Part shown: piece by piece, positions 1,022 through 15,890 of the stretch
How positions within the stretch are numbered: the stretch's first letter is position 1
How the letters are laid out: the number at the start of each line of letters is the position of its first letter
Assembly: GCA_947461185.1 (NCBI GenBank)
Contig: CANHJY010000009.1
Coordinates: forward strand, 1 to 15,890
DNA from: Flavobacteriales bacterium
GTDB taxonomy: Bacteria > Bacteroidota > Bacteroidia > Flavobacteriales_D > Crocinitomicaceae
Length of the DNA stretch: 15,890 nt
Direction of reading: 5' to 3'
Position numbers and translations under genes: made by a program
Notes under the pieces: model-generated
The model's input: only the letters and a program-made list of their open reading frames with translations
What the model was told of the DNA's origin: nothing
Databases searched by the model: none

Positions 1022-4000
1022 ATGACAGAAATAAATTTAATTGGAAATTCGGGCGTTCAATTTCATAGAATCAAAGCAAAAATTGAGAAAGACAAATTAC
1101 GTAGTTTAAAATTTGTTTATTTTGAAGATGTTGAACTTAATAAAAGGCGTTTTTGGCTAGAAGAGTTGGTTTTTGTGTCAGAAAGGGATGCTTTTTGCAG
1201 AAAATCTGAATTAATTAAATTAGGTGCGTTCACAAGCGAAGCCAAGTTAAAGCCAACTATTAGATGGGACGAATTGCGGGTTTTCTCTGAAGGTCAGCCC
1301 CAAGTCTTTGAAGTTGGAAACATTCAACAGGTAATCAAAGCATTTAAAAACAAATGGATTCCACTTCCTTACTTCAAAAATAATTCGATCACTCGGGATT
1401 TTTTTGGTCCGACAGATTGGGTGAGAATGTTTATCAATCAAATCGATCAGGAAACATTAGAGATAATTTTTGCTGTAGATACAACACTTGCTGAAAGTCC
1501 TGAAGTTATTCACAGCCCTGAATTAAATGAGAATCCACAGGAAAACAAATTTAGTCTTTGTAAATCAGAAGAATTAATATTGCATTATTTTGAGCCTTTG
1601 ACTGATTGTAAATGGGTTGAAGATTATATTTTGCCCTTTTTCAAATTTGAGGATGGAGAAAGTCAAACCTTGCATTTAGCTTCTTATGTTTTCCTAATCC
1701 GATTTTTAAATAGTTTGGAGGAAACCCCAACTATTCAATTACTTTCTGACCGCGCTGGCGTTATAGATGTGGATTTAACAATTGATGTTGGAAATTCAAA
1801 CACATGCGCCCTTCTTTTCGAAAACCCAAATGATCTTCGTTTCAATTTAAACAAGGTGAAGCATCTTGAATTGGTTGATTTGTCGAATCCACAGAGAGCA
1901 TATAAAGGCAGTTTCTCTACACGACTCGTTTTTCACCAACCAGATTTTGGTTTTCGAATAGCTGAACTTAATCAATACAAAAAATTTAAATGGCCGAGCT
2001 TCGTGCGAATTGGAAATGAAGCAGAAAGATTGATAAATGAGGATGACCTTGATGCGTCAATTCGGTTGGAATCAAAAAGCTATCATTCCAGTCCGAAACG
2101 CTATTTGTGTGATGACTCCCCGCAAGAAACCGATTGGAATTTTTTGAATGAACGAACGAGTGTTCCAAAGCCGGTTTTTTTAAATGGTATATCAGAACAA
2201 CTTAAAAGTGATGGAAGTATTTGTTCCGACGGGGTATTTGGAGCCAATGCACGTTATTCTAAAAAGTCTTTAATGACTTTTGTGTTTTTAGAAATTCTGA
2301 CTCAAGCGCATCGCCAAATCAACTCATTTGAATTCAGAAGCGCTCATGGTTCAAATAACTCAAAACGAAGAATAAAAAGAATTCTTATTAGTTGCCCAAC
2401 AGCAATGATTAAACAAGAACAAATAGCGCTCCGAGCGTGTGCTAATGATGCCGTTATTTTGTTTAATAATTTCAACCAAGTTGTAAAATCGCAATTTAAA
2501 AAACTTTCTTTTGAGAACACAACAGTTGAAATAATCCCATCTACCGCCAATTTATCGGTAAAACTAGATCAACTTGAGACCAGAAATGATTGGATTTATG
2601 ATGAGGCCACAGCTGCACAATTCTTATATCTATTTGGTTCAATCCAACATAAATTTGATGGAAATGCCGAATTGTTCTTTGAATTATATGGTAAACCCGC
2701 TTTGTTTAATCAGTCGCAAAAGAAAATAGTTGTCGGTTCCTTGGATATGGGCGCGGGGACTACAGATTTAATGATTTGCGAGTATGGTTATGAGTATACT
2801 GATTCAACCACAATTCTTCCCGATCCAATTTATTGGGAAAGTTTCCATTTTGCTGGAGATGAATTGTTGAAACAGATAATTCAAGAGGTTATAATTGAGG
2901 GATCTGAGTCAGAAAAAGATGATTTAGGTTGCTCTGGTGTAATCCTCAATCATGGTAGAAAAAATGGAATAACGGATATCGTTTCGAAACTTAATGGTTT
3001 TTTTGGTAGAAATAATGCAAATATGGGTTATAAAGCTAGGTTGATGCGCCAAAGCTTTTTAAATCAAATAGGGTTACCTATTGCCCAAAAATTCTTGTCC
3101 GTGGCAAATGATCCAGAAGAGAAAACGTATGATTTAGATTTTGAAACTTTATTTAAAAACAATAAGCCAAATAAAGAATTGCTGAATTATTTCGCTAGAC
3201 ACTTTGGTTTTAAATTTGAACAATTAATTTGGAAAATCAATCCTAAAAAGGTAAATCGAATTATAGCATCTTGCTATTCAAAATTATTTGAGCAGATAGC
3301 AAAAATAATGCACCTTTACCGCTGTGATGTCATCATTTTATCAGGAAGGCCCTTCTCACTTAATTCTCTTGAGAAATCATTTATGAAACTTCATCCTGTA
3401 AACCCAAATCGCTTAATTAATTTAAATCATTATTGGATTGGAAAATGGTTCCCGTTCTGCGACAATCATGGCTACATCAATGATTCCAAAACAGTCGTTG
3501 CAGTGGGTAGTTTGTTGTCAATGATGGGAGGTAAAATTTTTAAACTCGATAATTTTAGAATTGACACCAAGAAACTCCGCACAAAAATTTGCTCAACAGC
3601 CAATTACATTGGAAACTGGGATAATTTTATAGTTAGCAAATCATTTATGGGCCCTGAAACAGAAGAAGCAAAGTTTAAAATTTACGATTTACCTTACCAC
3701 ATTGGATTTAAAAACATTGATTCGTCAAATTATCCATCAAGACTTTTATACACGTTGCAGTTTAATAACAACAATATAAAAACAAATTTAGGGCATTCAT
3801 CATTTGGTGACTCATTGAGCGTTATGGACGCTTTAGAGGATCGTAAAAATAGTCTTCGATCGAGATTGCCATACACAGTTACGTTAACCAGGGAATTTGA
3901 ACTAGACAAAGAAAAAATAAAACTTGAACTCATTCAAGATAAAGAAGATGGAGATGTAACTAAATCCAATTTTGAGTTAAAACTTCAGACCCTTGATCAT

Positions 4001-4051
4001 TCAGAAGGGTTTTGGCTAGATTCAGGGGAATTTAATCTTTCAGTAGAATAA
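1022..4051 (+). CDS. srfB: SrfB-family actin/Hsp70-fold ATPase
   Basis: This 1009-residue cytoplasmic protein has the nucleotide-binding signature of the actin/Hsp70 ATPase fold. The phosphate-1 loop is DVGNSNTC (255-262), followed by YDEATAAQ (526-533) at the Hsp70-type connect position, the phosphate-2 loop GSLDMGAGTTDL (572-583), an adenosine-pocket segment IILSGRP (771-777) and a closing helix VVAVGSLLSMM (825-835). Length, the roughly 250-residue leader before phosphate-1 and the order beside an SrfC-like gene match the SrfB family (PF07520), first seen in the SsrB-regulated srfABC operon of Salmonella. It has no signal peptide or membrane helix. The ATG at 1022 is the first plausible start after the promoter candidate. 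SrfC follows three bases after the stop. I infer that it works as a nucleotide-dependent switch or scaffold with SrfC and the SrfA-like proteins; the substrate is unknown. Confidence 0.85.
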   Translation: MTEINLIGNSGVQFHRIKAKIEKDKLRSLKFVYFEDVELNKRRFWLEELVFVSERDAFCRKSELIKLGAFTSEAKLKPTIRWDELRVFSEGQPQVFEVGNIQQVIKAFKNKWIPLPYFKNNSITRDFFGPTDWVRMFINQIDQETLEIIFAVDTTLAESPEVIHSPELNENPQENKFSLCKSEELILHYFEPLTDCKWVEDYILPFFKFEDGESQTLHLASYVFLIRFLNSLEETPTIQLLSDRAGVIDVDLTIDVGNSNTCALLFENPNDLRFNLNKVKHLELVDLSNPQRAYKGSFSTRLVFHQPDFGFRIAELNQYKKFKWPSFVRIGNEAERLINEDDLDASIRLESKSYHSSPKRYLCDDSPQETDWNFLNERTSVPKPVFLNGISEQLKSDGSICSDGVFGANARYSKKSLMTFVFLEILTQAHRQINSFEFRSAHGSNNSKRRIKRILISCPTAMIKQEQIALRACANDAVILFNNFNQVVKSQFKKLSFENTTVEIIPSTANLSVKLDQLETRNDWIYDEATAAQFLYLFGSIQHKFDGNAELFFELYGKPALFNQSQKKIVVGSLDMGAGTTDLMICEYGYEYTDSTTILPDPIYWESFHFAGDELLKQIIQEVIIEGSESEKDDLGCSGVILNHGRKNGITDIVSKLNGFFGRNNANMGYKARLMRQSFLNQIGLPIAQKFLSVANDPEEKTYDLDFETLFKNNKPNKELLNYFARHFGFKFEQLIWKINPKKVNRIIASCYSKLFEQIAKIMHLYRCDVIILSGRPFSLNSLEKSFMKLHPVNPNRLINLNHYWIGKWFPFCDNHGYINDSKTVVAVGSLLSMMGGKIFKLDNFRIDTKKLRTKICSTANYIGNWDNFIVSKSFMGPETEEAKFKIYDLPYHIGFKNIDSSNYPSRLLYTLQFNNNNIKTNLGHSSFGDSLSVMDALEDRKNSLRSRLPYTVTLTREFELDKEKIKLELIQDKEDGDVTKSNFELKLQTLDHSEGFWLDSGEFNLSVE

Positions 4052-4054
4052 CAT

Positions 4055-6811
4055 ATGAAAAACATTGAAATAGATAAAGTTAGGGAAATCGAATCCGCGT
4101 GTAAAGAATTCTATGATTCATACACGGAGGCGAATCAATGGGTGAACAATTACTTAAAATTTGAGGAAAAAGATAACCTTTCAACTTACATCAAAAAAAG
4201 TCGAGCCGAAATTTTAAAAATTCAAAATTCAATTTGTTCAAAACCAGTATTTGCAATTTTCGGAATTAGTCAAGTAGGAAAGTCCTATTTGGTTCAAAAT
4301 ATTTTGTCGTTGAACGGCGACTCGCTGAAAATAAAAGTCGGAGAGCGCGAATTTGATTTTTTATCTCAGATTAACCCTGTTGGGAATCAGCGAGAAAGTA
4401 CTGGGGTTGTCACAAGATTTACAATTGACCGATCAACTGGATCGAATGAATTTTCGGTTAAGGCAAAAATGCTTGTTGCGAAAGACATTGTAATAATTCT
4501 TGCTGATGCATTTTTTTCAGACATTACGAGTCGGGAAACTTATACATCGAGAGAAGAATTTAAAAAAACGATTGAAAATTTGAATTCCATTTATGGATCA
4601 AATGACCTAGTTCAAAATTACTTCACTGAGGATGATATTTGGAACACATTCAAATACTTTAATCAAAATTTTAAAGCATATGCACAAAACGTGAAAGATA
4701 TCGAACTCTCAGGTTTCTGGCATGCCGCAGGAAATTTAATTTCTAAAATCCCAGTTAGTGAATGGCACCGACTTTTTGAGTTAATATGGTGCAAAGACCC
4801 AGAGATGACAAAGCTTTTCAAACTCCTAATTTCAGCCTTGGAGCAAATAGAATTCAATCCGTTTATCTATTTAAATGAAACGGCGTTGTTAAGAGATGAA
4901 GGCGCCATTTTGGATGTCGAAACTTTAAATAAAATTTTAAGTCATTCAACTGAATACGAAATACAATTAGAAAATGGCAAACGAAAAAAAATAGAAATCT
5001 CCAAACTTAGCGCCGTTACAGCAGAGGTCACACTTCCTGTTAATGAGCGCATCGCGGATGACAAACCATTTTTAGCGAATACTGATTTATTAGACTTTCC
5101 AGGCGCAAGAAGTAGAGAGTCGTTTACTTCTGAAATGATGTCAGAACAAATTGCTGTCAAAATGTTTTTGCGCGGAAAAGTTTCGTTTTTATTCAATAAG
5201 TATAGTTCTGATTTTGAAATAAACAACCTTCTGTTTTGTATGAAGGATGAGAAAATCGAGGTCAATGTAATCGCAGATTTATTATATGATTGGATCACAA
5301 AAAATGTAGGGGAAACCCCTGAAAAAAGAGAAGAAGTGGTTGGTAATCTTCCTACTTCACCGTTATTTGTAATATTTACTTTTTTTAATAGGCAATTGTC
5401 TTTTGATCCTGTGAATGATGATAAAGATGTCCGATACAAATGGGATAATCGTTTTAGAAAATTCTTTGAGGAACAAATAACATTCAAATATAACTGGCAT
5501 ACAAGCTGGACTAAAACCAAACCAAACTTTTCCAACTTTTATCTTTTGCGTGATTTTAAATATTCAAAAGATGTTTTTAATTCGGAAAATGGAATAGAAA
5601 TAGGTGTGAAATCTGAAATGCAAGGTCACTTAAACAAATTGCAGTCAACGTTTCAAGAGGACATCTTTGTTAAAAAACATTTTGAAACCCCACTTTTGTC
5701 ATGGGAAAATTCGGCAAGTCCACAAAAAGATGGAAGCCAAATGATAATTGATGCCTTATTACCCGCAGCAAACAATTTTGTAAAGACATCTTATTTTTGT
5801 AAAACATTGCAAGGTTATCGCGAGAAAATCCTAACAGATTTATCAAAATACATTGTCAATGATAATTTAAACGAAAAACGAAAAATAGCTTTTCAAAAAG
5901 CAACGGATATTGAATTTGAACTGTTAAACCTATTTCAAAATCCCGGTTTTAGCTTTATTGAATTTTTGGAACTAATGTCGCTCAATGAAGTAGAGATCTA
6001 TAATTTAATTCATAAAAATTATGTCTCCTCTCAAAACCGTCAAGAGCCTGAGCATTTTCAGATTTTTAAGAAAATGTTCCCCTTAATTTCTAATGACAAC
6101 ACTTTAGAAGAAAATTTGAATATTATTAAAAACCAACTTCATTTTGATACAACCGATGAGGTAAAACAGTATTTAGTTTCAAAAAACATTGATCTTCAGT
6201 TAGTTTTGGAGAATCGTGTTTTGACAAGTGCCGCGCGCTTGGTAGACTCGGTAATTGATTCATGGCGAAAAAGACTTGAATTAGAAAATTTTGAAAGTTA
6301 TTTTCAAATGGGTCTGGATAAAAACGCTATGTATTTGTTAGTTGAAAACCTTTATCTTACTTTCGATTCTCTCGGAATTAGAGATGAATTAATTCAACTT
6401 TTTGAACAAAAAACAAGACTTATCAATGCACCAAGTGATACAGAGGAATATTTGGCCTCAATAATAACTGAGCATATCAATGATTTTGTTTCGAATTTCG
6501 GGTTCAACTTTATGAAAGAGGATCGAATAAATGAAATTGTAAAAATCGCCAAAGCATTTAATCAAAATTTAAATTTGCTAACAAGGGAAGACATTCAAGA
6601 TTATAACGCGGAATTAAAAAACATTTATGACAAAACAGATTCGTTAAATGATGTAGATCTGCCGAAGTCTGAAAACTTCCAATTATTTACCTTGAAAATA
6701 AAGCTCGCTATGTTATCAAATTGTGGCTTTGCAATGCAAGATGAAAATATGAATGCCTCACTCACAAAAATTCTTAGTAGACTCAAGATGTTAAAGTTCG
6801 AGTTGAATTAA
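4055..6811 (+). CDS. srfC: SrfC-family large P-loop GTPase-like protein
   Basis: The 918-residue product has a P-loop near its start, FGISQVGKSY (69-78), a switch-I-like threonine segment ESTGVVTRF (114-122) and a G3-type DFPGARSR (347-354). About 270 residues, mostly helical, lie between P-loop and G3, which is the unusual spacing of the SrfC 'putative virulence factor' family (PF10139). A normal N/TKxD G4 motif is missing; the matching strand reads VIFTFFNRQL (439-448), so guanine specificity cannot be read from sequence. The C-terminal half is predicted helical with no membrane segment. The overall plan recalls dynamin-like or septin-like large GTPases, which is an inference. It begins three bases after srfB and ends ten bases before the SrfA-like gene, so all three are surely co-transcribed. 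Confidence 0.8.
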   Translation: MKNIEIDKVREIESACKEFYDSYTEANQWVNNYLKFEEKDNLSTYIKKSRAEILKIQNSICSKPVFAIFGISQVGKSYLVQNILSLNGDSLKIKVGEREFDFLSQINPVGNQRESTGVVTRFTIDRSTGSNEFSVKAKMLVAKDIVIILADAFFSDITSRETYTSREEFKKTIENLNSIYGSNDLVQNYFTEDDIWNTFKYFNQNFKAYAQNVKDIELSGFWHAAGNLISKIPVSEWHRLFELIWCKDPEMTKLFKLLISALEQIEFNPFIYLNETALLRDEGAILDVETLNKILSHSTEYEIQLENGKRKKIEISKLSAVTAEVTLPVNERIADDKPFLANTDLLDFPGARSRESFTSEMMSEQIAVKMFLRGKVSFLFNKYSSDFEINNLLFCMKDEKIEVNVIADLLYDWITKNVGETPEKREEVVGNLPTSPLFVIFTFFNRQLSFDPVNDDKDVRYKWDNRFRKFFEEQITFKYNWHTSWTKTKPNFSNFYLLRDFKYSKDVFNSENGIEIGVKSEMQGHLNKLQSTFQEDIFVKKHFETPLLSWENSASPQKDGSQMIIDALLPAANNFVKTSYFCKTLQGYREKILTDLSKYIVNDNLNEKRKIAFQKATDIEFELLNLFQNPGFSFIEFLELMSLNEVEIYNLIHKNYVSSQNRQEPEHFQIFKKMFPLISNDNTLEENLNIIKNQLHFDTTDEVKQYLVSKNIDLQLVLENRVLTSAARLVDSVIDSWRKRLELENFESYFQMGLDKNAMYLLVENLYLTFDSLGIRDELIQLFEQKTRLINAPSDTEEYLASIITEHINDFVSNFGFNFMKEDRINEIVKIAKAFNQNLNLLTREDIQDYNAELKNIYDKTDSLNDVDLPKSENFQLFTLKIKLAMLSNCGFAMQDENMNASLTKILSRLKMLKFELN

Positions 6812-6821
6812 CTATAATTAA

Positions 6822-7712
6822 ATGAAAACTATTTATTCCATTCCGTATAATCAGTACCAAGCGATTTCGCACAAAACAGATTTTGTATTTGAGAAATACA
6901 ATGCGATTATTTCGTTATTGACTAGACAAAACATTCTCCCTAACGACTTAAAAAGAATTTGTAAACCCAATCAAATAAACCAGGATCGTATTGAATGGCA
7001 GGGTGATTTCAACAACTCTATGAAGCCAATTAAAGAGTTTGGACCAGAAATACAAAGAAAATTCGAAAAGGACTATTCTGCTTGGTGGAAAACAATTCAG
7101 GCGAAAGCCAATCTATTAAAAAATTCGGATAACGAAGACTCTAAACAATGGGGTGAATTGATTAAAAGTGCATTCAAAGAAGACACTAACATTATTATTT
7201 CGGATGGAACTGATTGGGCTGTCATCTGGGGTTGGAAATTCAACAACCGATTCGAACATCTTCCGCAGAATTGGCAAATAGATGAAGTTCCAGCTGAGGA
7301 AGAACAGGAAGAAAAAAAAGAAGGTCTAGAAGGACAAAATGCCATTGAAACCGAGCCAACTCCTGAGCCTCCCTCAACACCAAATCCCGAGCCACCAACT
7401 CCCGGGCCACCAGCACCGCCAAGTCCCCCCGAGCCACCAACACCTGAAGCTGATCCTACTCCTGAAAAAAAATCGAGAATTGGATTTTGGGGCTGGATAA
7501 AACGATTTTTTAGATGGATTGCCTACCGTTTCTGGGGTCTTATGACGCTAATAGTATATACCTTATTAATCATTTTCTTAACTAAAAAATGTAGTACCCC
7601 ATCTAATAATTGCGAAGATTTTAGGAAAATCGAAAATGAACTAAAAGAACTCGAGGGAAGAGTGAAGGAGAAATGTCAAAATGCTGATTCAACTCAGGTT
7701 GTAAATCCTTAA
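6822..7712 (+). CDS. SrfA-like single-pass membrane protein
   Basis: Of its 296 residues, 1-145 form a soluble domain with markers YNQYQAISHKTDFVFEKYNA (9-28), RIEWQGDF (56-63) and IISDGTDWAVIWGWKF (125-140). The same domain opens the protease at 9052, and it resembles my recollection of the N-terminus of proteobacterial SrfA. An acidic segment (158-170) leads to a Pro/Glu-rich linker (179-216), a basic aromatic stretch (217-238) and one membrane helix at about 239-254 (GLMTLIVYTLLIIFL). A short Cys-containing coiled-coil-like tail (257-285) follows. The basic stretch before the helix predicts the N-terminal domain inside the cell and the tail in the periplasm. Its place right after srfB and srfC supports an SrfA-type partner role. 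It is shorter than typical SrfA as I recall it, so assignment by name is tentative. Confidence 0.7.
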   Translation: MKTIYSIPYNQYQAISHKTDFVFEKYNAIISLLTRQNILPNDLKRICKPNQINQDRIEWQGDFNNSMKPIKEFGPEIQRKFEKDYSAWWKTIQAKANLLKNSDNEDSKQWGELIKSAFKEDTNIIISDGTDWAVIWGWKFNNRFEHLPQNWQIDEVPAEEEQEEKKEGLEGQNAIETEPTPEPPSTPNPEPPTPGPPAPPSPPEPPTPEADPTPEKKSRIGFWGWIKRFFRWIAYRFWGLMTLIVYTLLIIFLTKKCSTPSNNCEDFRKIENELKELEGRVKEKCQNADSTQVVNP

Positions 7713-7715
7713 AAG

Positions 7716-8315
7716 ATGAGATTAATAGTTTCAAAACATACGGCAAGAAAATGGTGGTACCGCTGGATACGAACACTTAGTTGGTTTTCTTTTCGATACT
7801 ATTGGTTTGTTTGGCTTCTTTTCATTCTTTCTACTCTAGTGTTGTTATGGTTGATACAACGCTCGAATAAGGTTCAGCGTTGCGATACCCGAGTAATTGA
7901 GAAATCGATTGAACAGATAAATGAGAATTTAAATTATTGCTGTGATTGCGTAAATCAAGTTGTTACAGACGATCCGGTTGCGCCACCATCCCCTGCTGAC
8001 GTAATAAATTGCGATGATCAGAATAGTATTAAAGAGGAGGGAAGCAATGTAGCTCCAGCACCAAAATCATTTGAGGTTGGAAACGTTAGTGGAACAATCA
8101 AACTATGTTATAATAATGGGGATATATTTCCTGATAACATAAAAGTTCTGCATAATGGCAACGTTATCTTTGAGACAGGTGTTGTCACGGGAAAGAACTG
8201 TGTAGATGTCCCTTACGTTTATAATCCAGGTGACCCTACTTATGTGCAAGTAATTGTCGAGCCATCTAACTCACAAGACACTAAATGGAAATATCAACTT
8301 GGCTGTCCTCAATAG
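7716..8315 (+). CDS. Membrane-anchored protein with beta-rich outer domain (paralogue A)
   Basis: This 199-residue protein is not a recognised family. Residues 12-48 are basic and very aromatic (WWYRWIRTLSWFSFRYYWF) and run into one membrane helix (about 30-48); the basic N-terminus predicts a periplasmic C-terminus. A helix follows with a conserved cysteine set, C56 and CCDC at 75-78. After a Pro/Ala-rich linker (83-117) comes a domain of about 80 residues rich in predicted strands (VSGTIKLCYNNGDIFPDNIKVL onwards), resembling a beta-sandwich. The first 80 residues are clearly paralogous to the next gene, sharing FSFRYYWFVWL, while the C-terminal domains are unrelated by eye. It starts three bases after the SrfA-like gene. 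A structural or sensory role in the envelope is possible but not shown. Confidence 0.75.
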   Translation: MRLIVSKHTARKWWYRWIRTLSWFSFRYYWFVWLLFILSTLVLLWLIQRSNKVQRCDTRVIEKSIEQINENLNYCCDCVNQVVTDDPVAPPSPADVINCDDQNSIKEEGSNVAPAPKSFEVGNVSGTIKLCYNNGDIFPDNIKVLHNGNVIFETGVVTGKNCVDVPYVYNPGDPTYVQVIVEPSNSQDTKWKYQLGCPQ

Positions 8316-8322
8316 AAATAAA

Positions 8323-9048
8323 ATGCACGTAAGCAAAAAATATTGGTATAGAAATATTCGGGCGAAAAGTTATTTTTCATTTCGCTATTATTGGTTTGTT
8401 TGGCTTGGATTTAGTGCTCTTCTTGCCTTATTAATTTATTTTCATCAATGCGCGAAAGAACCAAAAAAATGTGAAACCAATGCCCTTGATACAATAATTG
8501 AAATAAATCGCGCTTTGGATAATTGTTGTGAATGTGGCACTGACACAACAGGAATTCACTTTCCGGCAGATTATCTAATAATTACTTATCAATTTGATGC
8601 TGATGGCGGCCGAGATCTAGATACAAAAACGGGTATTTCAAGTCCTTTATCCGCTGGACCTCTTGGATATTGTGATCTTTCTAATCATGGAGATCCATAC
8701 CTATTTTGGAGTGGTGACAATACAGGAATTGGAGTAGAATCATGTATGATTGACTTGACACAATTTGGAACAAATGATGTTGTTACAATAGATTGCTCAG
8801 CCTTATGGTGGAGACTAAGAAATTCAGGTGACATGTCACTAGATATTCGTGCCTTTGAAGGAGGTTCAATGTCTTTAAATGGATACCAATTTGTAAATAG
8901 CGGAGGAATGGAATCTGCTTTCACGAGTTTCGATGGTAATGTTTCAAATGCCGGTTCTGATTGCAATAAAATGGAAGCCGTTGGAACCATCGTTTACAAT
9001 AAAAAAAATAAAACGCTTCAATTCATCCCAGCTCAAAACAATCAGTAA
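8323..9048 (+). CDS. Membrane-anchored protein with Asp-rich outer domain (paralogue B)
   Basis: The ATG at 8323 is chosen, seven bases after the previous stop; it gives 241 residues beginning MHVSKKYWYR and aligns with paralogue A. An earlier start at 8254 would add 23 residues overlapping that gene. Residues 6-41 carry FSFRYYWFVWL and one membrane helix, then C50 and CCECG (68-72) at the same spacing as in paralogue A. The outer domain (about 82-236) has a possible calcium-binding strand, YQFDADGGRDLDTKTG (89-104), then LFWSGDNTGIGVESCMIDL (127-145), LWWRLRNSGDMSLDIRAF (161-178) and GSMSLNGYQFVNSGG (181-195). I recall a domain with FDxDxxxDLDTRT and WGGDNTGxGxE motifs but cannot name it. 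A cell-surface or periplasmic recognition role is inferred. Confidence 0.75.
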   Translation: MHVSKKYWYRNIRAKSYFSFRYYWFVWLGFSALLALLIYFHQCAKEPKKCETNALDTIIEINRALDNCCECGTDTTGIHFPADYLIITYQFDADGGRDLDTKTGISSPLSAGPLGYCDLSNHGDPYLFWSGDNTGIGVESCMIDLTQFGTNDVVTIDCSALWWRLRNSGDMSLDIRAFEGGSMSLNGYQFVNSGGMESAFTSFDGNVSNAGSDCNKMEAVGTIVYNKKNKTLQFIPAQNNQ

Positions 9049-9051
9049 ATT

Positions 9052-11181
9052 ATGAAAAAGCACTATGTATTTGATCCAAATCGTTATAAAGCAATTTCTG
9101 AAGGAAATGCATTTGTTTATTTGAAATATGAGGCACTAAAAAGTTTTCTCAGAGCTAATTTCAGAGAGGAAATTCAGCAATTACTTTTAAAACCGGTTAA
9201 AAACAATAATGAAATCGAATTTTGGTCTGAGCAAACTGGTTCTTTTTCAGAGCTGAACTCATTCGATTTGGCAAAGCAGGAAAAAATTATTTTAAAATAC
9301 AACGCGCTGATTTATGAAATAGAGCAAAAAGCCGAACAATTTAGAAATGGAACAGACATAGATGATTTTAAATGGGGAAGGATTTTATCCAGCGTTTTTA
9401 ATCCTAATTGCAATCGAATATTAAGCGACGGAGAAAATATAGTTGTTGTTTGGGGTTGGGGATTTCAAAATCAACAAAATTACGAAAGGCCATTCGACGC
9501 ATTCTCTAGTTTAATTTTTATCGATCCAGTTATTTCTGATATTGACAACGCAGAAGAAGAAATAGATGTTTTACCTCCCAATGAAGAGGAAGAAATCGCC
9601 GAGGAAAAACCGATTGAAGCTCCAGAAAAGGTTGAAATTAAAGAAGAAAGTACTATTACTGAAGAGGAACCAGCTAAAACGAAAGAAGAAACAAAAAAAA
9701 CGAGAAGACCAGTAGTTCCACCAACAACTAATGGATTGACTCAAATATTGGATGCCTTTGAAAGATTTGCACTGAGAAATAAATGGTTGGTTGTCATTCT
9801 AGCAATTATCCTACTCTTACTTCTCCTTAAACTTTGTTCTCAAAAACCAACACTTTCTGCATCAGATCTTGATCCAATAGAATTAAAGGAACGTTATCAG
9901 GAAATTATGCCGCCCACTCCAAAAGTCCGCAAGAAACCTATTAATAACAAAGACATCATTGAGGATAAGCAAACCAAAACCAAAGTAGTAGGGAATTTAG
10001 TAAACATTGCGTTAAAAAATAAATCAGATAATTTTCAGCATTTCGCAGTCGACCTAAAAAATGCGTTTCCATCAGACGAATATCAAATTGTTTATTTCGA
10101 TGATGAAACTCGCCGACTGCAGTTACAGTTTCCAGCGGATCAACGTGCGAATATAAAAACAGAGATTAGATCCAAAATGACTCAATATAAATTATTGATT
10201 TGGGATGAATCTATTTTTTCAAGCACAAAAACATTTAATGATCCTGCCTCACGAGATTTGCAAAAATTCGGTCCATGGGCAGCACTAAATCTCCCTGCAG
10301 CATGGGATATTACTACCGGTGACACATCCGTTATTGTTGCGGTTATTGACAATGGTTTCGATTTAAAACACTTTGAATTGAAATCGAAAATAGTTAAACC
10401 TTATAATGTTGTAACGGATAGCCGGGTAATCACCTATCCAAATGATGAAAAAGGACCGCATGGAACACATGTGGCAGGACTTGTAGGCGCAGTCGGTAAT
10501 AATTCGAAAGGTATCATTGGAGCAGCTCCCAGTTGTAGAATTATGCCTATTCAAACAGCAGGTAATAACTCCCAGTTTCTAATGTCTGATGTTGTAGATG
10601 CCATTTTATATGCAATAAAAAACAATGCCGATGTTATCAATATGTCATTGGGGCTTCAATTTACAGATGATGTCAAAAATATGTCACAAAGTCAACAAGA
10701 AAATATGATTAGTAAATTCGGAAAGGATGAAGCGGAATTTTGGAATGAATTATTCTTAATGGCGGAGGAAAATAATGTTACAATCGTTACGGCTGCAGGG
10801 AACCAAAATATAATTGTTGGACTTGACCCAATGTCCAGGAGCTCACGATCTATTAAAGTGGCCGCGACTGATAATTCGAAACAAAAAGCCTTTTTTAGTA
10901 ATTACTTTAGTTTTAATCTCAACAACGGATCGTGCATAAGCGCCCCTGGTAGTAACATTTATAGTTCTGCTCCCAATGGTGGATTTATTTATGAAAGCGG
11001 AACGAGTATGGCATCACCATTAGTAGCAGGTGTAGTTGCGCTGATGAAAAGCGTGAATAATAACATTTCAAACAAGAATATTATGCGCATATTACATGAA
11101 ACAGGTATTAAGACTAATGGCAGTAAAATTGGAGCCTTTGTTCAAGCTAATAAGGCTGTTTTGAAGGCAAAAAATTTGTAA
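9052..11181 (+). CDS. SrfA-like domain fused to membrane-tethered subtilisin (S8) protease
   Basis: The 709 residues contain, in order: an SrfA-like domain (1-145, with FDPNRYKAISEGNAFVYLKY and ILSDGENIVVVWGWGF) paralogous to the protein at 6822; a Glu-rich linker (166-217); one membrane helix (about 244-262, KWLVVILAIILLLLLLKLC); a linker; a small alpha/beta domain (about 327-387) placed like a subtilase propeptide; and an S8 catalytic domain (about 400-709). The catalytic set is intact: Asp433 in VAVIDNGFD, His470 in GPHGTHVAG, oxyanion Asn584 in TAAGNQN, and Ser652 in SGTSMASP. An insertion of about 37 residues (536-572) lies between the SLGL strand and the Asn strand. With no signal peptide and basic residues before the helix, the protease should face the periplasm while the SrfA-like domain stays inside. 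The gene starts three bases after paralogue B. Targets, and whether the propeptide-like part is cleaved, are unknown. Confidence 0.88.
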   Translation: MKKHYVFDPNRYKAISEGNAFVYLKYEALKSFLRANFREEIQQLLLKPVKNNNEIEFWSEQTGSFSELNSFDLAKQEKIILKYNALIYEIEQKAEQFRNGTDIDDFKWGRILSSVFNPNCNRILSDGENIVVVWGWGFQNQQNYERPFDAFSSLIFIDPVISDIDNAEEEIDVLPPNEEEEIAEEKPIEAPEKVEIKEESTITEEEPAKTKEETKKTRRPVVPPTTNGLTQILDAFERFALRNKWLVVILAIILLLLLLKLCSQKPTLSASDLDPIELKERYQEIMPPTPKVRKKPINNKDIIEDKQTKTKVVGNLVNIALKNKSDNFQHFAVDLKNAFPSDEYQIVYFDDETRRLQLQFPADQRANIKTEIRSKMTQYKLLIWDESIFSSTKTFNDPASRDLQKFGPWAALNLPAAWDITTGDTSVIVAVIDNGFDLKHFELKSKIVKPYNVVTDSRVITYPNDEKGPHGTHVAGLVGAVGNNSKGIIGAAPSCRIMPIQTAGNNSQFLMSDVVDAILYAIKNNADVINMSLGLQFTDDVKNMSQSQQENMISKFGKDEAEFWNELFLMAEENNVTIVTAAGNQNIIVGLDPMSRSSRSIKVAATDNSKQKAFFSNYFSFNLNNGSCISAPGSNIYSSAPNGGFIYESGTSMASPLVAGVVALMKSVNNNISNKNIMRILHETGIKTNGSKIGAFVQANKAVLKAKNL

Positions 11182-11205
11182 AGTGACATTAAATTTCTAT
11201 TTTTG
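11175..11205 (+). promoter_or_regulatory. Candidate internal promoter before the second operon half
   Basis: TTTG (11175-11178) is followed by exactly 19 bases and then TATTTTTG (11198-11205). This matches the Bacteroidetes TTTG-N19-TAnnTTTG layout in both boxes and spacing. The -33 box overlaps the last codons of the protease gene, and the -7 box lies 20 bases before the ATG at 11226, in the only gap in the operon longer than ten bases. A start near 11212 would leave a leader of roughly 14 bases. A weak six-pair hairpin (11192-11197 with 11207-11212) overlaps the -7 box. Confidence 0.5.
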
Positions 11206-11225
11206 GGAAATTAATTTTAATAGTT

Positions 11226-12173
11226 ATGGCTTTAAACTCAAATAAAAAAATCGGCGAGCTCTTCGAGGTTGCACAGTTAGCAAGTTTGTTTGTTATATTG
11301 ATTGGATTATTCTTCGGATCCATGTTTGCTTTTGATAGCTATTTTATTAGTATTCCAGTAAGTTTTGGAATTGTAATTTTATTATACAAATTGCTTGAAA
11401 TATTAATAAACAAACGCATGGAGCGAAATCGAGAAAATGTGAATATGGGCGCAAGCGCATTATGGGCACTTTTTGTGGTTTGTGCAATTCCGACCAATAT
11501 ACTTATCGTTCACATGTTCAATGTTGAATTTACAGAAAAACAAGCCATAAAAGATGTTGGAAATAATAAAATTGCTTGCCTCGATTCGTTGCATTCGAAA
11601 TATACCTCCACATACGAAACATATCTTGGACAAATAAAACATGATCTTTTGACATATATCGATACTAAAAACTACGAGAAAGCGGTAAAAATTGGATTAG
11701 ATAAGGACGATCTAAATTTTTGGCACAAAAAATCAGATTTAGAGATAGCATCTTTTATTGATAGTTTCTACATTTCTCCAAGTCGTAATACTTTTATAGT
11801 AAAAGATTCAGTTGTTTTTGGCTCGAATTTTCAAACATATATTGCCGAGCAGCGAAATAATATTCAACAGTTTAAACATTTCCAACAAAATAAAACACTG
11901 AACGACTTGAATTTTAAATTGGAAAAAACAAGAGACAGTATCGTGCCATTTTTAAAAGAAAAAACAAAAACAGATTTAATATTTAATAATATTTGTATTG
12001 ATGACAATTCGCTTATCAGTTCACCCTTACGTCTGTTTCGTAAACAACTAGGCTTATCTACATTGTTTATTTTACTACTAACGAATGGTTTGTTGTTATT
12101 GCCATACTTTTTATCCCCAAAAAAAGTCTATGGGTCAACAGGCGGAATTAATAATGTTAAAACATACGATTAA
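11226..12173 (+). CDS. Four-helix membrane protein with large outer loop
   Basis: No family is recognised for this 315-residue protein. Hydrophobic segments lie at about 14-36, 38-54, 76-98 and 276-296. A mostly helical, charged loop of about 175 residues (100-275) sits between the third and fourth. The basic stretch NKRMERNREN (62-71) between helices two and three predicts that side, and both termini, as cytoplasmic, leaving the large loop in the periplasm. The C-terminal tail (297-315) is short. The gene follows the 44-base gap with the internal promoter candidate and is separated by four bases from the GTPase, so it probably forms a unit with that GTPase and the TSP3 protein. A role as membrane anchor or receptor for the GTPase is inference. 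Confidence 0.75.
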   Translation: MALNSNKKIGELFEVAQLASLFVILIGLFFGSMFAFDSYFISIPVSFGIVILLYKLLEILINKRMERNRENVNMGASALWALFVVCAIPTNILIVHMFNVEFTEKQAIKDVGNNKIACLDSLHSKYTSTYETYLGQIKHDLLTYIDTKNYEKAVKIGLDKDDLNFWHKKSDLEIASFIDSFYISPSRNTFIVKDSVVFGSNFQTYIAEQRNNIQQFKHFQQNKTLNDLNFKLEKTRDSIVPFLKEKTKTDLIFNNICIDDNSLISSPLRLFRKQLGLSTLFILLLTNGLLLLPYFLSPKKVYGSTGGINNVKTYD

Positions 12174-12177
12174 AATA

Positions 12178-13494
12178 ATGGCACAAAGAGATCAAAAAGA
12201 ACAAGCGCTAGTTGATTTTATTTTAAAAAATATTCGCAACAAAACGGCTGTCGAACTGCAAAACTATCGCTCAATAATGGGCATTACTCTGGCTGAAATG
12301 ATTTATGCTGGTTTACGGGCAGAACAATTGGAAAGTTTACCAAATGAATTTTTAAAAGAGTGTATTGACAACAATGAAGTAACTTCCGAAGAAATGATTA
12401 GTGCTGGACTATCTGAAGATCGCGTAAATGAATTAATTGGAGCCACTTCAGAACCAGATCCAGAACCCGAACCATTTCCGATTTACCCAGATCCATATCC
12501 TACTCCCGTTGCGAATCAATCCGAGAGGGAAAATTTGTTGCTAGATATTGATAATAACGACGCCGAAATTGCTGACATTCAAAGAGGTATAAACCGAAAA
12601 ATTATTTCTAAACAAGATTTGTATGATCGGGGATGTTCTGCCGATTTAGTGGAACGATTGATGCAATATTCACCTTTGAACGCGATATTTCCAAAAGTGT
12701 CTGATTTACCCCCCCTTCGTAAAAACGCAACAGATGTTTATTTTCTTGGTATGCCAGGATCAGGAAAATCTACCATGTTAGCTTCTCTTCTCGCCTATGC
12801 GAACAAAAAAGGCTTGATGAAACCGGTTGTAGACAACTCTTTTGGTAATAAATACAAGAATCAATTGGTTTTGGGGATGGTTCAAGGTCATCTCCCAAAT
12901 TCAACACCAAGAGAATTTATCAATTTTATCCCCGTTGATATGAGGCATGCAGCCCAAGATAATACTCAACAGTTAAACTTCATTGATATGGCCGGTGAAA
13001 AATTCAAACAAGTTGCAGATAGTGGCATTGATGAATTCAAGGCATACAAGGATTATTTGAGTAACGATAACAATAAATGCCTAATTTTTGCAATGGATTA
13101 TTTTGAAAAAAATCCTGTAAAATATACCGAACAGGATCAGAATCTACAAGAAGTTTTAGCCCTTTTGGAAAAGTTTGATATTTTGAAAAAAACGGATGCT
13201 GTTTATCTAGTACTTACAAAAGCCGATTTATTTCCTGATGATAATAAACAAAAGTTTTGTGAAACACACGTTGATAAGATGTATACCAATTTTGTAAATT
13301 CATGCCTCGACGCAAAGAAAACACACAAATTTGTTATGAAAAACTTTCCTTTTTCGATTGGACCTTCGAGATTTAATTACATCCTTGAAGATTGTGATCT
13401 TGAAACGAATGAGAACTTGGTTCGTTATCCTAAGCAACTTCTCAAGCAATTAGAGGAGGATATTTCTTATTTCAAAAAAGGTTGGTTTAACTAA
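12178..13494 (+). CDS. P-loop GTPase with repeated N-terminal helical motif
   Basis: The ATG at 12178 is preferred, four bases after the previous stop; longer starts at 12085 or 12154 would overlap that gene. The 438-residue product has a GTPase core with Walker A FLGMPGSGKSTML (189-201), G3 FIDMAGEKF (268-276) and G4 VLTKAD (345-350), so guanine binding is well supported. It resembles the single-domain GTPases placed in conflict systems under names such as 'double-GTPase' (DO-GTPase2), though only one P-loop is present. The N-terminal part contains three copies of a helical motif: ITLAEMIYAGLRAEQLESL (36-54), VTSEEMISAGLSEDRVNEL (68-86) and ISKQDLYDRGCSADLVERL (143-161). An acidic Pro-rich linker (92-111) lies between copies two and three. 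No membrane segment is present. It is probably a cytoplasmic switch working with its membrane neighbours on both sides. Confidence 0.82.
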   Translation: MAQRDQKEQALVDFILKNIRNKTAVELQNYRSIMGITLAEMIYAGLRAEQLESLPNEFLKECIDNNEVTSEEMISAGLSEDRVNELIGATSEPDPEPEPFPIYPDPYPTPVANQSERENLLLDIDNNDAEIADIQRGINRKIISKQDLYDRGCSADLVERLMQYSPLNAIFPKVSDLPPLRKNATDVYFLGMPGSGKSTMLASLLAYANKKGLMKPVVDNSFGNKYKNQLVLGMVQGHLPNSTPREFINFIPVDMRHAAQDNTQQLNFIDMAGEKFKQVADSGIDEFKAYKDYLSNDNNKCLIFAMDYFEKNPVKYTEQDQNLQEVLALLEKFDILKKTDAVYLVLTKADLFPDDNKQKFCETHVDKMYTNFVNSCLDAKKTHKFVMKNFPFSIGPSRFNYILEDCDLETNENLVRYPKQLLKQLEEDISYFKKGWFN

Positions 13495-13501
13495 AGAAAG
13501 A

Positions 13502-15478
13502 ATGAGTACTATAGACATATCTATTTGGGGGATAAGAGACGGCTTTCAGCAGGGAGGTTTTTTTCACAGTCATAATTTTAATGCAGTAAAAGAAATTCAA
13601 CAGGATCGATTTCGTTCGGTTAAAAACGTAATTGGTCGCGAAGGGTTTTTCATGACGCATCGAAAAGGTGGCAAATTTATTGTAACATTTTGTGATACCA
13701 GTATTAAGGAATATAATCCTAATGCCAAACGCGGAGCGTATGTTTGTTTTTCACTTATCATTGATGAAAATTTCGCTTTTTCAGTAAGTCCTCGCTCTGT
13801 TTTAATGGAATTAGCTCGATTTTATGTGCAGAGAGTTGGCGAATCGAACACTAATAATTTTGAGGCAGAAGACATTCAAATTTACCTCAAACATATTCAA
13901 ATAGAAGCCAAACATTCAGTTAGTGTTGCACTGCCAGGAAGCCATTATCTGTATTACAACACTCCAAATCAAATCGATGAAATCCTAACTGGAAAATTGC
14001 CTTTTGTTAACTTAAATGAATTGGTTTTGATTCCAAACAATGAGATTGATGTGAAAACGAACAGTTTCAAGGACATTGCCTTTTACGATGACTCATACGG
14101 AGTTACTCCTTCCTATTTCAATTTGAATTCATTTAAAGTCAAATACGAAGATGATGAAATCAAGAGGCAACACAAAGCAAAACAAGCTATCATTGACAAG
14201 GAAAACGAGCGTATTCGCCAAGAGGAAGAAATCAGACAAATAAGGCAATTGGATAGTCAACTAGCTATTCTGTTAAATCAAAATAAGTTAGACGAAGCTA
14301 TCAAACTCTATAAAGAAGCACCTGCCGCTGCGCAGGTAAAAATTTCTAACCAGGTTTCCAACGATTTAAAACATCGAATTCAAAAAAAAGAAATTGATGC
14401 CGTTGATGAACAGAGAAAACAGGAAGATCGCGAGAAAATTACGGAAATCGAAGAAGCTTTAAAAAATGAGGATTTGGAAGCGGCAGCAGCTATTTTCTTT
14501 AAGTTACACGATAAAAACAACAAAGAATTAGACCCTGAAAAGAGAGAGCAAATTCAGGAATTTAACACAGAAAAAAGAGAAGAAATTTTACGTAGACAAA
14601 AAGAAGAGGACGACAAAAAGAAGAAAGAAGCAGTAAGGAAAAAACGTAGAAAAACGATTTTGTTTTCATCTGTTGTTACTATTTCAGTGCTTTTTATAGT
14701 AAGTTTCTTTACCGCTTTCCCGTCGGCGTTGTGGGATTCCGACGAAGATGGTTATCATACTTTTTTGGATGATAACTGTCCCGACGAGAAAGGAATGATA
14801 GGTGGCTGTCCAGATAAAGATAACGATGGCATTTTGGATAAATTGGATGAATGTCCAGATCAAAAAGGAACTGTGAACGGTTGCCCAGATTCTGATGGTG
14901 ATGGTGTTGCTGACAAATTCGACAAGTGTGACACCATTCCTGGTTCTACAGATAATCACGGGTGTCCAGAGCCCGAAAAAATGGATTCGGCAACCACTGA
15001 ACAACAAATTCCTGACACCTATGACCTTGCGCCTCAGGAGGAGTCTGATAAACTCTTAAAAGGAATACCTGTTAAAACTCCTTCAGATGGTCTTTTTTAT
15101 AGGCAGAATGTCGGTCAAAAATGGATTAAATTTAAATCCAAAAACTATGAGTTTTCGAAATCTGAAAAAAACGGATATCAACCTGTAAAAACACAAGAAA
15201 CTGTCGATTTGTTAAACAAGTATTACGGATTGAAAGGGGAGTTGAAACAAGTTGGATCAACGACAGCCCCAATAACTCAAACCCCTAAAACTAGCCAGAC
15301 GACTAAACCTCGAAATCAAAATCAAACTCAAACAAATACGACTACAAAAAACAAATTAACGGATGCTGAGGAAAACGAATTGAAAGAATTGCTAAAAAAG
15401 TTTGAAACCACACCATTGAATTTACATGAAATAAAAAGAAAGAATGAATTAATGAAAAAAAGGGACGGTAAATTATGA
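13502..15478 (+). CDS. Trans-envelope protein with helical cytoplasmic part and outer TSP3 repeats
   Basis: Residues 1-212 of 658 form an unrecognised alpha/beta domain containing SIWGIRDGFQ, GREGFFMTH and RGAYVCFSLIID. A charged coiled coil (213-250) is followed by helical-hairpin segments like TPRs (LDEAIKLYKEA at 263-273; LEAAAAIFFKLH at 325-336) and more coiled coil (340-383). A basic cluster (373-384) precedes one membrane helix (about 385-405), predicting N-terminus inside. The outer part opens with three thrombospondin type 3 repeats, starting DSDEDG (412), DKDNDG (438) and DSDGDG (463), each with downstream NCP/ECP/KCD cysteines, so it probably binds calcium and is rigid. A small domain (506-580), a Thr/Gln/Asn-rich linker (586-617) and a charged C-terminal helix follow. 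The gene starts seven bases after the GTPase and overlaps the next gene by four bases. It looks like a link between the cytoplasmic GTPase and an outer structure. Confidence 0.8.
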   Translation: MSTIDISIWGIRDGFQQGGFFHSHNFNAVKEIQQDRFRSVKNVIGREGFFMTHRKGGKFIVTFCDTSIKEYNPNAKRGAYVCFSLIIDENFAFSVSPRSVLMELARFYVQRVGESNTNNFEAEDIQIYLKHIQIEAKHSVSVALPGSHYLYYNTPNQIDEILTGKLPFVNLNELVLIPNNEIDVKTNSFKDIAFYDDSYGVTPSYFNLNSFKVKYEDDEIKRQHKAKQAIIDKENERIRQEEEIRQIRQLDSQLAILLNQNKLDEAIKLYKEAPAAAQVKISNQVSNDLKHRIQKKEIDAVDEQRKQEDREKITEIEEALKNEDLEAAAAIFFKLHDKNNKELDPEKREQIQEFNTEKREEILRRQKEEDDKKKKEAVRKKRRKTILFSSVVTISVLFIVSFFTAFPSALWDSDEDGYHTFLDDNCPDEKGMIGGCPDKDNDGILDKLDECPDQKGTVNGCPDSDGDGVADKFDKCDTIPGSTDNHGCPEPEKMDSATTEQQIPDTYDLAPQEESDKLLKGIPVKTPSDGLFYRQNVGQKWIKFKSKNYEFSKSEKNGYQPVKTQETVDLLNKYYGLKGELKQVGSTTAPITQTPKTSQTTKPRNQNQTQTNTTTKNKLTDAEENELKELLKKFETTPLNLHEIKRKNELMKKRDGKL

Positions 15479-15890
15479 ATAAAAATAAGAAATTAGTAAT
15501 TATGCTGCTCGCGGCTAGTGTGTTTATCGCAGTTGTTGTAGCAATTACAAATGATCCCCCTCCCCCTCCCCCTCCGCCGCCTAGTTCGAATCTTTTTACT
15601 CAGTTGAAATCAAAAATTGATTCGATGGAAATACAAGCCTATGAGGAAGAACAGTACAAAGGATTAAAACTTCTAATTGCCACATATGGCAAAAGCAAAC
15701 AGATCACCTCAACCGACTCCTTAAACCTCATTTCGTTATTAGAGTTGGGAAAATCAAAAAGCTTGGTCATCTCCTTTGATCAGCAAGAAAGCACTACTTG
15801 CATGGGGATAGTTTCCCTTGCCAAATGGACCGAAGAATTAAGAAGACAAGAAATCATCATTCCCTACCCCGAGGCTAAAAAGCGCATTCA
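15475..15890 (+). CDS. Membrane-anchored protein with polyproline linker, 3'-truncated by window edge
   Basis: The ATG at 15475 overlaps the TGA of the preceding gene (ATGA), which supports translational coupling and the start choice. The frame stays open for 138 codons to the window end. It begins with MNKNKK, a hydrophobic helix (about 7-24, LVIMLLAASVFIAVVVAI), and then nine consecutive prolines (28-36). The helix could be a membrane anchor or an uncleaved signal; no clear lipobox is seen. A coiled-coil-like helix (LKSKIDSMEIQAYEEEQYKG) and an alpha/beta-looking segment follow, including SKSLVISFDQQEST and CMGIVSLAKW. No family is recognised. The protein is expected in the periplasm and belongs to the same operon. 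It may continue well beyond the window, so its end and function cannot be judged. Confidence 0.72.
   Translation, partial: MNKNKKLVIMLLAASVFIAVVVAITNDPPPPPPPPPSSNLFTQLKSKIDSMEIQAYEEEQYKGLKLLIATYGKSKQITSTDSLNLISLLELGKSKSLVISFDQQESTTCMGIVSLAKWTEELRRQEIIIPYPEAKKRI
15556..15582 (+). repeat. C-rich hexamer repeat encoding polyproline
   Basis: Three perfect copies of CCCCCT are followed by CCGCCGCCT and encode nine prolines. On the - strand this gives three G5 runs spaced by single A residues, plus shorter GG runs, an exceptional base composition in this A/T-rich region. Gain or loss of one hexamer would change the linker by two prolines without shifting the frame. Confidence 0.8.

Follow-up and report, generated by a model that had tools for sequence, protein, structure and literature searches.

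What would a block of ten genes headed by srfB and srfC do in an uncultured member of the Crocinitomicaceae? The srfABC genes are entered as 'virulence factors' in many pathogen annotations, and we read two articles as leaving their cellular role unsettled (PMC6950479, PMC11942329). The window, by which we mean the whole stretch of DNA analysed, is a complete contig of 15,890 nucleotides (CANHJY010000009.1) from a Flavobacteriales genome, G000 (GCA_947461185.1). The ORF list and profile searches place ten tightly packed, co-directional genes, g1 to g10, on its + strand between positions 1022 and 15888. The gaps between them are, in order, 3, 10, 3, 7, 3, 44, 4, 7 and -4 bases, if 8323 is taken as the start of g5 and 12178 as that of g8; the initial annotation had rightly described a ten-gene co-directional block with no spacing above 44 bases. 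Because the window is the whole contig, g10 runs off it on the 3' side, and the block lacks the eleventh gene that nine relatives show by position. On the opposite strand lie four ORFs of 82-197 aa that overlap block genes. A Bacteroidota promoter pattern was considered for the 44-base gap before g7 and rejected, the one match against 1.67 expected being at chance level; the -7 part of the pattern is present, among ten such gaps, only in those of the window and of genome G254.

The product of g1 (1022..4051, 1009 aa) is SrfB (PF07520, E 9.8e-172, 573.8 bits against a cut-off of 27.1) and that of g2 (4055..6811, 918 aa), which adjoins it across 3 bases, is SrfC (PF10139, E 2.5e-114, 383.8 bits against 28.1). 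Modelling gives SrfB a predicted Hsp70/Hsp110 fold with ATP motifs (about residues 248-989) behind an additional N-terminal domain (1-247), the Hsp70 alignment of the model reaching residue 989, beyond the nucleotide-binding part. By sequence, SrfB matched no chain of solved structure at E 1, and Pfam (E 0.1) found neither a J-domain protein nor GrpE in the block. In modelled fold and in ATP motifs SrfB is like the Hsp70/Hsp110 proteins DnaK and Sse1; it differs from them in its 247-residue N-terminal part. SrfC is modelled as a large GTPase of dynamin-type fold; it has a DxPG G3 motif, a degenerate G4, and a hydrophobic segment (139-157) that just exceeds threshold and is placed by the model within the GTPase domain. 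In fold, domain by domain, and in its G3 it is like the bacterial dynamins (BDLP, CjDLP, SynDLP, IniA, LeoA) and mitofusins; it differs in its G4 and in being partnered, in the loci read, with an Hsp70-fold protein. An Hsp70-fold ATPase teamed with a dynamin is not known to have been described in bacteria. The open-access literature yielded no paper combining three of SrfB, SrfC, Hsp70 and dynamin, nor one joining SrfB and SrfC with Bacteroidetes.

Two later genes, g3 (6822..7712, 296 aa) and g6 (9052..11181, 709 aa), had been called SrfA-like, a name which does not hold at the NCBIfam cut-off (NF040486; 19.1 and 29.7 bits, far under 150) but does by profile comparison: hhalign against proteobacterial SrfA gave 97.5 % for g3 and 98.7 % for g6, and a SrfA-N profile, with both proteins themselves in its seed, matches them at E 7e-49 and 2e-50. 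On profile evidence only, then, their N-domains appear related to that of proteobacterial SrfA. In g3 the domain is followed by one TM segment near 237-255 and a short tail, in g6 by a TM segment at 245-263 and a subtilase domain (425-684; PF00082, E 8.8e-47) predicted to lie across the membrane. Residues D433, H470 and S652, which we take to be the subtilase catalytic residues, are conserved in every locus of the alignment (9/9), and in g6 a SrfA-type N-domain is fused to an intact subtilase. In most SrfA-type proteins a TM segment follows the N-domain, and the parts on the far side vary: subtilase in the window, CarboxypepD/Ig-like or DUF2135-like domains in relatives. Between g3 and g6 stand g4 (7716..8315, 199 aa; N-terminal TM anchor at 29-47, predicted periplasmic part) and its paralogue g5 (8323..9048, 241 aa; TM at 22-40), homologous across residues 7-80 of g4 (E 1e-19), the TM region, and different in their far parts; g4 is also homologous to FLU_4 of Fluviicola (E 7e-33).

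Such anchors bear on the idea that the block encodes a secreted tripartite toxin, as the initial annotation had mentioned for Xenorhabdus. A report of this kind does exist, describing E. coli lysates with Xenorhabdus SrfABC as cytotoxic (PMC6950479), and Salmonella SrfA is termed an effector in a review (PMC11942329); but the three-gene make-up is unlike that of the window block, the membrane segments of most SrfA-type proteins and the predicted chaperone-like and dynamin-like folds of SrfB and SrfC, both of which lack an N-terminal hydrophobic segment, speak against secretion, and of nine srf genomes, not all of them complete, only one yielded TssC of the Bacteroidota T6SS (PF17541), with no match in G000 (65 % complete). 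We consider a toxin very improbable.

The second half of the block begins with g7 (11226..12173, 315 aa), which has four TM segments (at 18, 43, 77 and 275) and a loop of about 180 aa; its window group aligns with those of five other locus groups (hhalign 79.7-99.3 %). The next gene, g8 (12178..13494, 438 aa), encodes a DO-GTPase-like GTPase with an N-terminal extension (PF19993, DO-GTPase2, about 31.6-31.9 bits, cut-off 27), with G191, S195-S198, G273-E274, K348 and D350 invariant in 8 sequences; it reaches 98.7 % by hhalign to the GTPases of L061-L063, and its best match to a solved structure was at E 0.023. The two sets of genomes searched contain five with full-length g8: in four of these it shares a contig with srf genes, and in the fifth, G015, which is itself SrfB-positive, it lies on a separate contig; all SrfB-positive genomes of those sets (4/4) have it, and among the genomes searched it occurs only in srf-positive ones. 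The protein of g9 (13502..15478, 658 aa), in 10 of 12 loci the immediate neighbour after the GTPase, comprises an N-domain, a TM segment (385-403) with 10 K/R before it and 0 after, and TSP3-like repeats on the far side. As a TSP3 protein, its earlier designation, it is sub-threshold in the window (TSP_3, 14.3 bits against 25), but FLU_11 of the Fluviicola locus passes (30.5 bits); one g9 relative matches TSP3_bac at 9e-8. The contig end cuts g10 (15475..15888, at least 138 aa), which has one N-terminal TM segment (7-25) and a homologue in G015b_2 (E 1e-11). A hydrophobic segment suited to membrane anchoring is thus present in seven proteins, g3, g4, g5, g6, g7 (four), g9 and g10, with a charge bias which in g6, g9 and g10 agrees with an N-terminus on the inner side; three nucleotide-binding and seven membrane-anchored proteins is exactly the composition first proposed.

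Kaur et al. 2020 (PMC7159879), in whose text Srf is mentioned 0 times, describe systems in which a DO-GTPase is accompanied by HSP70 and by TM proteins. The block is like these DO-GTPase/GAP1 systems in that a TM protein comes after its DO-GTPase-like GTPase, in its Hsp70-fold partner and in its several TM proteins with far-side parts; it differs in that the window shows no GAP1 or FNIII match, that SrfB with its extra N-terminal part would take the Hsp70 role, and that a dynamin-fold partner is added. A Pfam search of the ten proteins gave no FNIII match, nor one to GASH as far as Pfam may cover it. The candidacy of g9 as GAP1 was dropped: seven g9 proteins have no GAP1 family match (Pfam HMMs, E 10), GAP1-N2 (PF20013) is absent from G000 and from all of 148 genomes of the phylum, and hhalign comparison of g9 with GTPase-downstream proteins gave only 10.8-19.4 %.

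Short intergenic gaps are common in compact genomes, and the ten genes might simply be unrelated neighbours packed by chance in a dense one. This is contradicted by the recurrence of the gene set. Among 12 Bacteroidota srf loci, which are no census, the subtilase is present in 11 and g7 in 10 (9 by sequence), while the g8 GTPase also reaches 11, in 10 of them on the same contig; SrfC, subtilase and GTPase share one contig in 10 of the 12, with SrfC 25 to 50 % identical to that of the window where compared, and once, in G701, with the two halves of the block in swapped order. Chance packing can be all but disregarded, and the accessory genes do travel with srfB/srfC in distant genomes, as the initial annotation proposed to check.

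Possession of the locus is patchy: SrfB-positive genomes number 3 among 99 relatives, 2 among 395 genomes of the phylum and 4 among 395 of the class, the window's own genome counted each time. SrfC of G022, a genome of the same genus, is only 28.5 % identical to that of the window and groups with other families, and the srf genes have probably passed between lineages, to judge from these comparisons. Patchiness, transfer and the varying far parts weigh against a housekeeping role in envelope biogenesis or surface-protein quality control, in which SrfB and the subtilase would handle misfolded exported proteins and SrfC would shape the membrane; with the extent of the SrfB Hsp70 alignment and the predicted membrane-anchored protease in its favour, we still regard this role as unlikely.

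The same patchiness and transfer could suit a conflict system of the DO-GTPase kind, directed at phages or other elements, in which detection of an infection would set off the GTPase and Hsp70 switches, and the cell would then be killed or sealed by the dynamin or the subtilase. Consistent with it are the g8 score above the DO-GTPase2 cut-off, the described HSP70-partnered systems, and a match of the subtilase to models of anti-phage IetS (PADLOC E 1.7e-9; NCBIfam 29.8 bits against 900); BREX lies 1.3 kb before a Runella plasmid locus, and two other loci have, at about 5 and about 10 kb, a type I restriction gene and a reverse transcriptase of the DRT type. In PADLOC 2.0, however, SrfB was unmatched and SrfC had nothing below E 0.01 (DrmC, E 0.016); the g6 subtilase also matched the subtilase model (2.5e-18), and g8 matched mad8 (0.0016). 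Nor was there the defence-island enrichment that had been suggested as a check: 55 PADLOC families were counted among 109 flank proteins against 75 among 110 control proteins from the same genomes, the control stretches being one draw and family names covering the first 25 of each set. The flank set was 109 of 142 proteins, excluding nine from the Runella plasmid (BREX annotated) and 24 others, mostly short, without a fixed rule; G022 and the window, having no usable flanks, did not enter. The lack of a GAP1 match in g9 and of GAP1-N2 in G000 also counts against it, as does the absence of SrfB from 50,697 phage records and from the viral contigs reached by the scan's patterns. As neither SrfB nor SrfC has a PADLOC match that convinces, and defence genes are not enriched around the loci, phage defence is unsupported, and we judge it improbable. 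A viral or phage origin of the genes was likewise discarded: the phage records gave no match, and of 70 viral-contig stretches that had a pattern none is a relative.

The block can also be compared with proteobacterial srfABC (Salmonella, Xenorhabdus, Klebsiella plasmids). SrfB and SrfC are clear homologues there and the SrfA N-domain is related by profile, but in the window SrfB comes first and SrfA-type genes follow SrfC (not srfA-srfB-srfC), one SrfA-type gene is fused to a subtilase, and a 4-TM protein, a GTPase and a TM/TSP3-like protein are added. That the proteobacterial operon has three genes, as had been stated, is true of five Enterobacterales loci with SrfABC alone; 9 of 16 untruncated proteobacterial loci, counted on six frames, carry four more, co-directional and one gene after SrfC, for vWA, ABC ATPase, FtsX permease and SUMF1 proteins. 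A TagQ-like protein is present in 7 of the 16, including a lipoprotein in L036 (NF041250, E 5.6e-15; 55.4 bits, cut-off 300). This gene set resembles the TagQRST-PpkA threonine phosphorylation pathway of the H1-T6SS, as outlined in PMC11323562 and PMC12607579, the former reporting a TagQRST response to attack by T6SS or T4SS, to polymyxin B, to EDTA and to DNA. Unlike that pathway, the window is without the module, only SrfA, SrfB and SrfC profiles matching at E 1e-4, and no kinase was found among ten Klebsiella plasmid proteins scanned. One Bacteroidota locus, G494, combines SrfB, SrfC and SrfA::subtilase with TssR_VWA (3e-24), TssR_C (7e-12), FGE (2.3e-18) and an ABC ATPase, this Tag-like module standing where the GTPase genes would be. 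In open-access literature from 2016 on, no paper contained both TagQRST and SrfB.

We give about an even chance to the block being a machine for sensing envelope perturbation and remodelling membrane, with exchangeable sensor modules; the envelope-spanning signalling machine imagined at the outset fits the Tag-like module seen in relatives. The ten genes would encode one such machine, in which the SrfA N-domains, in the cytosol, dock SrfB and SrfC at the inner membrane, and damage to the envelope or contact with something foreign is sensed by the far parts. A signal through g7-g9, or in relatives through the TagRST/vWA-like module, might then let SrfB load or release SrfC, which would remodel or seal the membrane; the subtilase could cut a periplasmic or surface protein. 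If sensing runs in this way from far parts to SrfB and on to SrfC, attack on the envelope, or stress to it, would be what triggers the system.

A wider proposal, more tentative than the last, is that SrfB-SrfC is the Hsp70-dynamin engine of trans-envelope guard machines in Gram-negative bacteria, into which lineages plug either a TagQRST/TssR-vWA or a GTPase-subtilase module, the bare SrfABC of several enterobacteria being a stripped form; TagQRST-like sensors would then be general attack sensors, not specific to T6SS and also able to drive membrane remodelling. Should this be true, such sensors would also function outside type VI secretion. The predicted Hsp70 and dynamin folds, the SrfA family with its swapped far parts and the tie to a Tag-like module make the role of srf testable in harmless carriers. 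Recurrence of much the same gene set in distant relatives suggests that the Srf 'virulence' genes may lie at the heart of an apparatus for surveillance or repair of the cell envelope.

The window spans one entire contig of a source genome that is 65 % complete. It opens with a DUF4116-repeat gene (1-573; E 1.1e-50 over four stretches), cut at its 5' end by the contig and lying outside the srf block, from which a 448-base gap separates it. The ten genes of the block (1022-15888, + strand) are co-directional, with gaps of 3, 10, 3, 7, 3, 44, 4, 7 and -4 bases. SrfB (57 % identical to that of Fluviicola sp. XM-24bin1, the nearest named record among the matches listed) is followed by SrfC, an SrfA-type membrane protein, two membrane proteins with a common TM region and an SrfA-type N-domain fused to a subtilase; the second half comprises a 4-TM protein (g7), a GTPase (g8), a TM protein with TSP3-like repeats (g9) and a small TM protein (g10) cut at the contig end.

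The accessory genes had been proposed in the initial annotation to belong with srfB and srfC, and in relatives they do travel together. Our searches yielded twelve Bacteroidota srf loci in all: the window, those of genomes G015, G048, G254, G022, G701 and G662, a Runella plasmid, and L012-L015 (in genomes G491-G494), these four taken from among the matches listed. SrfC is present in all twelve and SrfB in 11, the G022 contig starting within SrfC; the subtilase is present in 11/12, the exception being G015, whose contig stops within SrfC, and it is fused to the SrfA N-domain in ten of these 11, G048 having the N-domain in a nearby gene. The GTPase is found in 11/12 (ten on the same contig, that of G015 on a different one), g7 in 10/12 (the G022 copy assigned by position only), g9 and g10 in place in 10/12, and a further gene, g11, in nine, the G015 copies lying on its other contig. 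Profile comparison links g7 across most locus groups (14/15 pairs at at least 57 %); the links of g9 and g10 are partial, the two Bacteroidales loci falling out, and g11 is hardly linked. In G701 the g7-g11 half precedes SrfB rather than following the subtilase: the two halves have shifted yet remained together. The SrfC of G015 (L044, 1-2327) is also split into pieces of 273 and 503 aa, through a frameshift or an assembly error. In G662 a trypsin-like domain (E 1.5e-14) is encoded, along with Ig-like parts, by the second gene past g10 (L070, 6262-8850), which puts another protease close to an srf block.

The reverse search, with a profile of the GTPase, matched over the full length, at E 1.5e-76 or better, in 2/395 genomes of the phylum and 4/99 relatives, five genomes in total with the window's own in both sets; in four the contig also bears srf genes, and the fifth, G015, is SrfB-positive with g8 on another contig. 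SrfB itself is rare (3/99 relatives, 2/395 phylum and 4/395 class genomes, in overlapping sets that each count the own genome), and g8 is present in each of the four SrfB-positive genomes that the phylum and relatives sets contain. Matches to the GTPase domain only (E 1.1e-19 to 1.5e-7) occur in nine further phylum genomes and one further relative; the four of these ten stretches that were read (L060-L063) lack srf genes. Three, from Bacteroidota, carry DO-GTPase1-like genes (L061, 7226-10757; L062, 7780-11323; L063, 7681-10913) that adjoin a 344-354 aa protein and have downstream of them a protein of 411-527 aa for which Pfam gives no useful match, perhaps an unrecognised family of GAP1-like partners.

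The SrfC tree and the plasmid-borne Runella copy indicate that srf loci have probably spread horizontally between lineages. The SrfC fragment of G022, of the window's own genus, is only 28.5 % identical to that of the window, and a 17-protein SrfC tree places it with G662 and a pair of Bacteroidales loci (support 0.976), then with G254 (0.981); SrfC of G701, from a different family, is closer to the window, at 39.0 %. On the Runella plasmid (L033, 1-21174) SrfB lies about 1.3 kb past the end of a BREX system, on the same strand. Of the 142 plasmid records with SrfB, 114 are named as Klebsiella. The srf range extends past Proteobacteria and Bacteroidota: in a Phycisphaerae locus (L030, 9755-18246) a remote SrfC (E 4e-27) accompanies SrfB and an SrfA-like protein, with other genes in between.

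Such transfer between lineages and patchy occurrence, together with the DO-GTPase kinship of g8 and an IetS-like match of the subtilase, would suit an anti-phage or anti-element conflict system of the DO-GTPase kind; but SrfB and SrfC have no PADLOC matches and a flank control showed no excess of defence genes beside srf loci, and we consider this reading unlikely. Our literature search found no paper joining the parts described here, and the DO-GTPase paper (PMC7159879) does not mention Srf; srf genes and DO-GTPase/HSP70 neighbourhoods are each known already.

An SrfA N-domain profile of about 180 residues matches g3 and the subtilase fusion, and most of the srf loci read have one such protein or several; many of these matches are members of the profile seed (those outside it, E 2e-40 to 2e-3); it has no match in the broken G015 contigs or L030, nor among 227 ORFs of 21 other stretches. 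After the domain there is in most cases a single TM segment, then a variable far part: a subtilase, CarboxypepD/Ig-like parts (G494), or little. The catalytic residues D, H and S of the subtilase are retained in 9/9 aligned sequences (of 11 found). A DUF2135/PPC-like part, sub-threshold in Pfam, is carried by a TM protein of G701 and, through similarity to G048_5, by the subtilase protein of L014 and an SrfA-type protein of L015.

Among the twelve loci, only G494 (a MAG recorded as Acetofilamentum sp.) lacks g7-g10 without a contig end to explain it. Its SrfB, SrfC and SrfA-subtilase fusion are as in the window; at the g7-g10 position it instead encodes TssR-like vWA proteins (TssR_VWA 3e-24, TssR_C 7e-12) and an ABC ATPase, together with a sub-threshold FtsX-like permease and a SUMF1 domain (2.3e-18) on a TM protein. 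Profile comparison links its vWA protein to the proteobacterial one (97.5 %) and gives no link between the permeases (1.3 %). The set resembles one found in Proteobacteria, whose srfABC the initial annotation described as a three-gene operon. That description proved too narrow, and the locus often exceeds three genes: among 16 untruncated loci (13 of 16 genome loci among the matches listed, L016, L026 and L032 being dropped as truncated, plus hits H2, H3 and H5 from the 142 plasmid records), nine have the full vWA, ABC ATPase, FtsX permease and SUMF1 set, beginning one gene past SrfC, L031 holds three of the four, and six have none (Sinorhizobium and five Enterobacterales: Yersinia, Escherichia sp., Pseudescherichia, Salmonella and Erwinia). 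The one Klebsiella plasmid read, also from Enterobacterales, has all four (L036, 5962-22816): a TagQ-like gene and SrfA-SrfB-SrfC, then, one gene on, vWA-ABC-FtsX-SUMF1. TagQ-like glycine-zipper proteins occur in 7/16 loci; that of the Klebsiella plasmid matches NCBIfam TagQ at E 5.6e-15 and 55.4 bits, below the cut-off of 300. Parts of these kinds make up TagQRST; TagR is SUMF1-like and PpkA has a vWA part. Genes for T6SS control are noted next to srfABC in the introduction of a Xenorhabdus paper (PMC6950479). In eight of the nine Bacteroidota srf genomes searched, some of them incomplete, no TssC of the Bacteroidota T6SS was detected; as G494 is among the eight, its Tag-like module accompanies Srf without a detected T6SS sheath.

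The data establish which parts are present, how they are linked, what folds are predicted for them and that modules are swapped. Beyond this we infer a mechanism in which SrfB and SrfC would form an engine that SrfA-type anchors tether to the inner membrane and that either of two sensor modules drives. Its likeliest input would be envelope damage or contact, and its likeliest output membrane remodelling by SrfC together with proteolysis outside the inner membrane.
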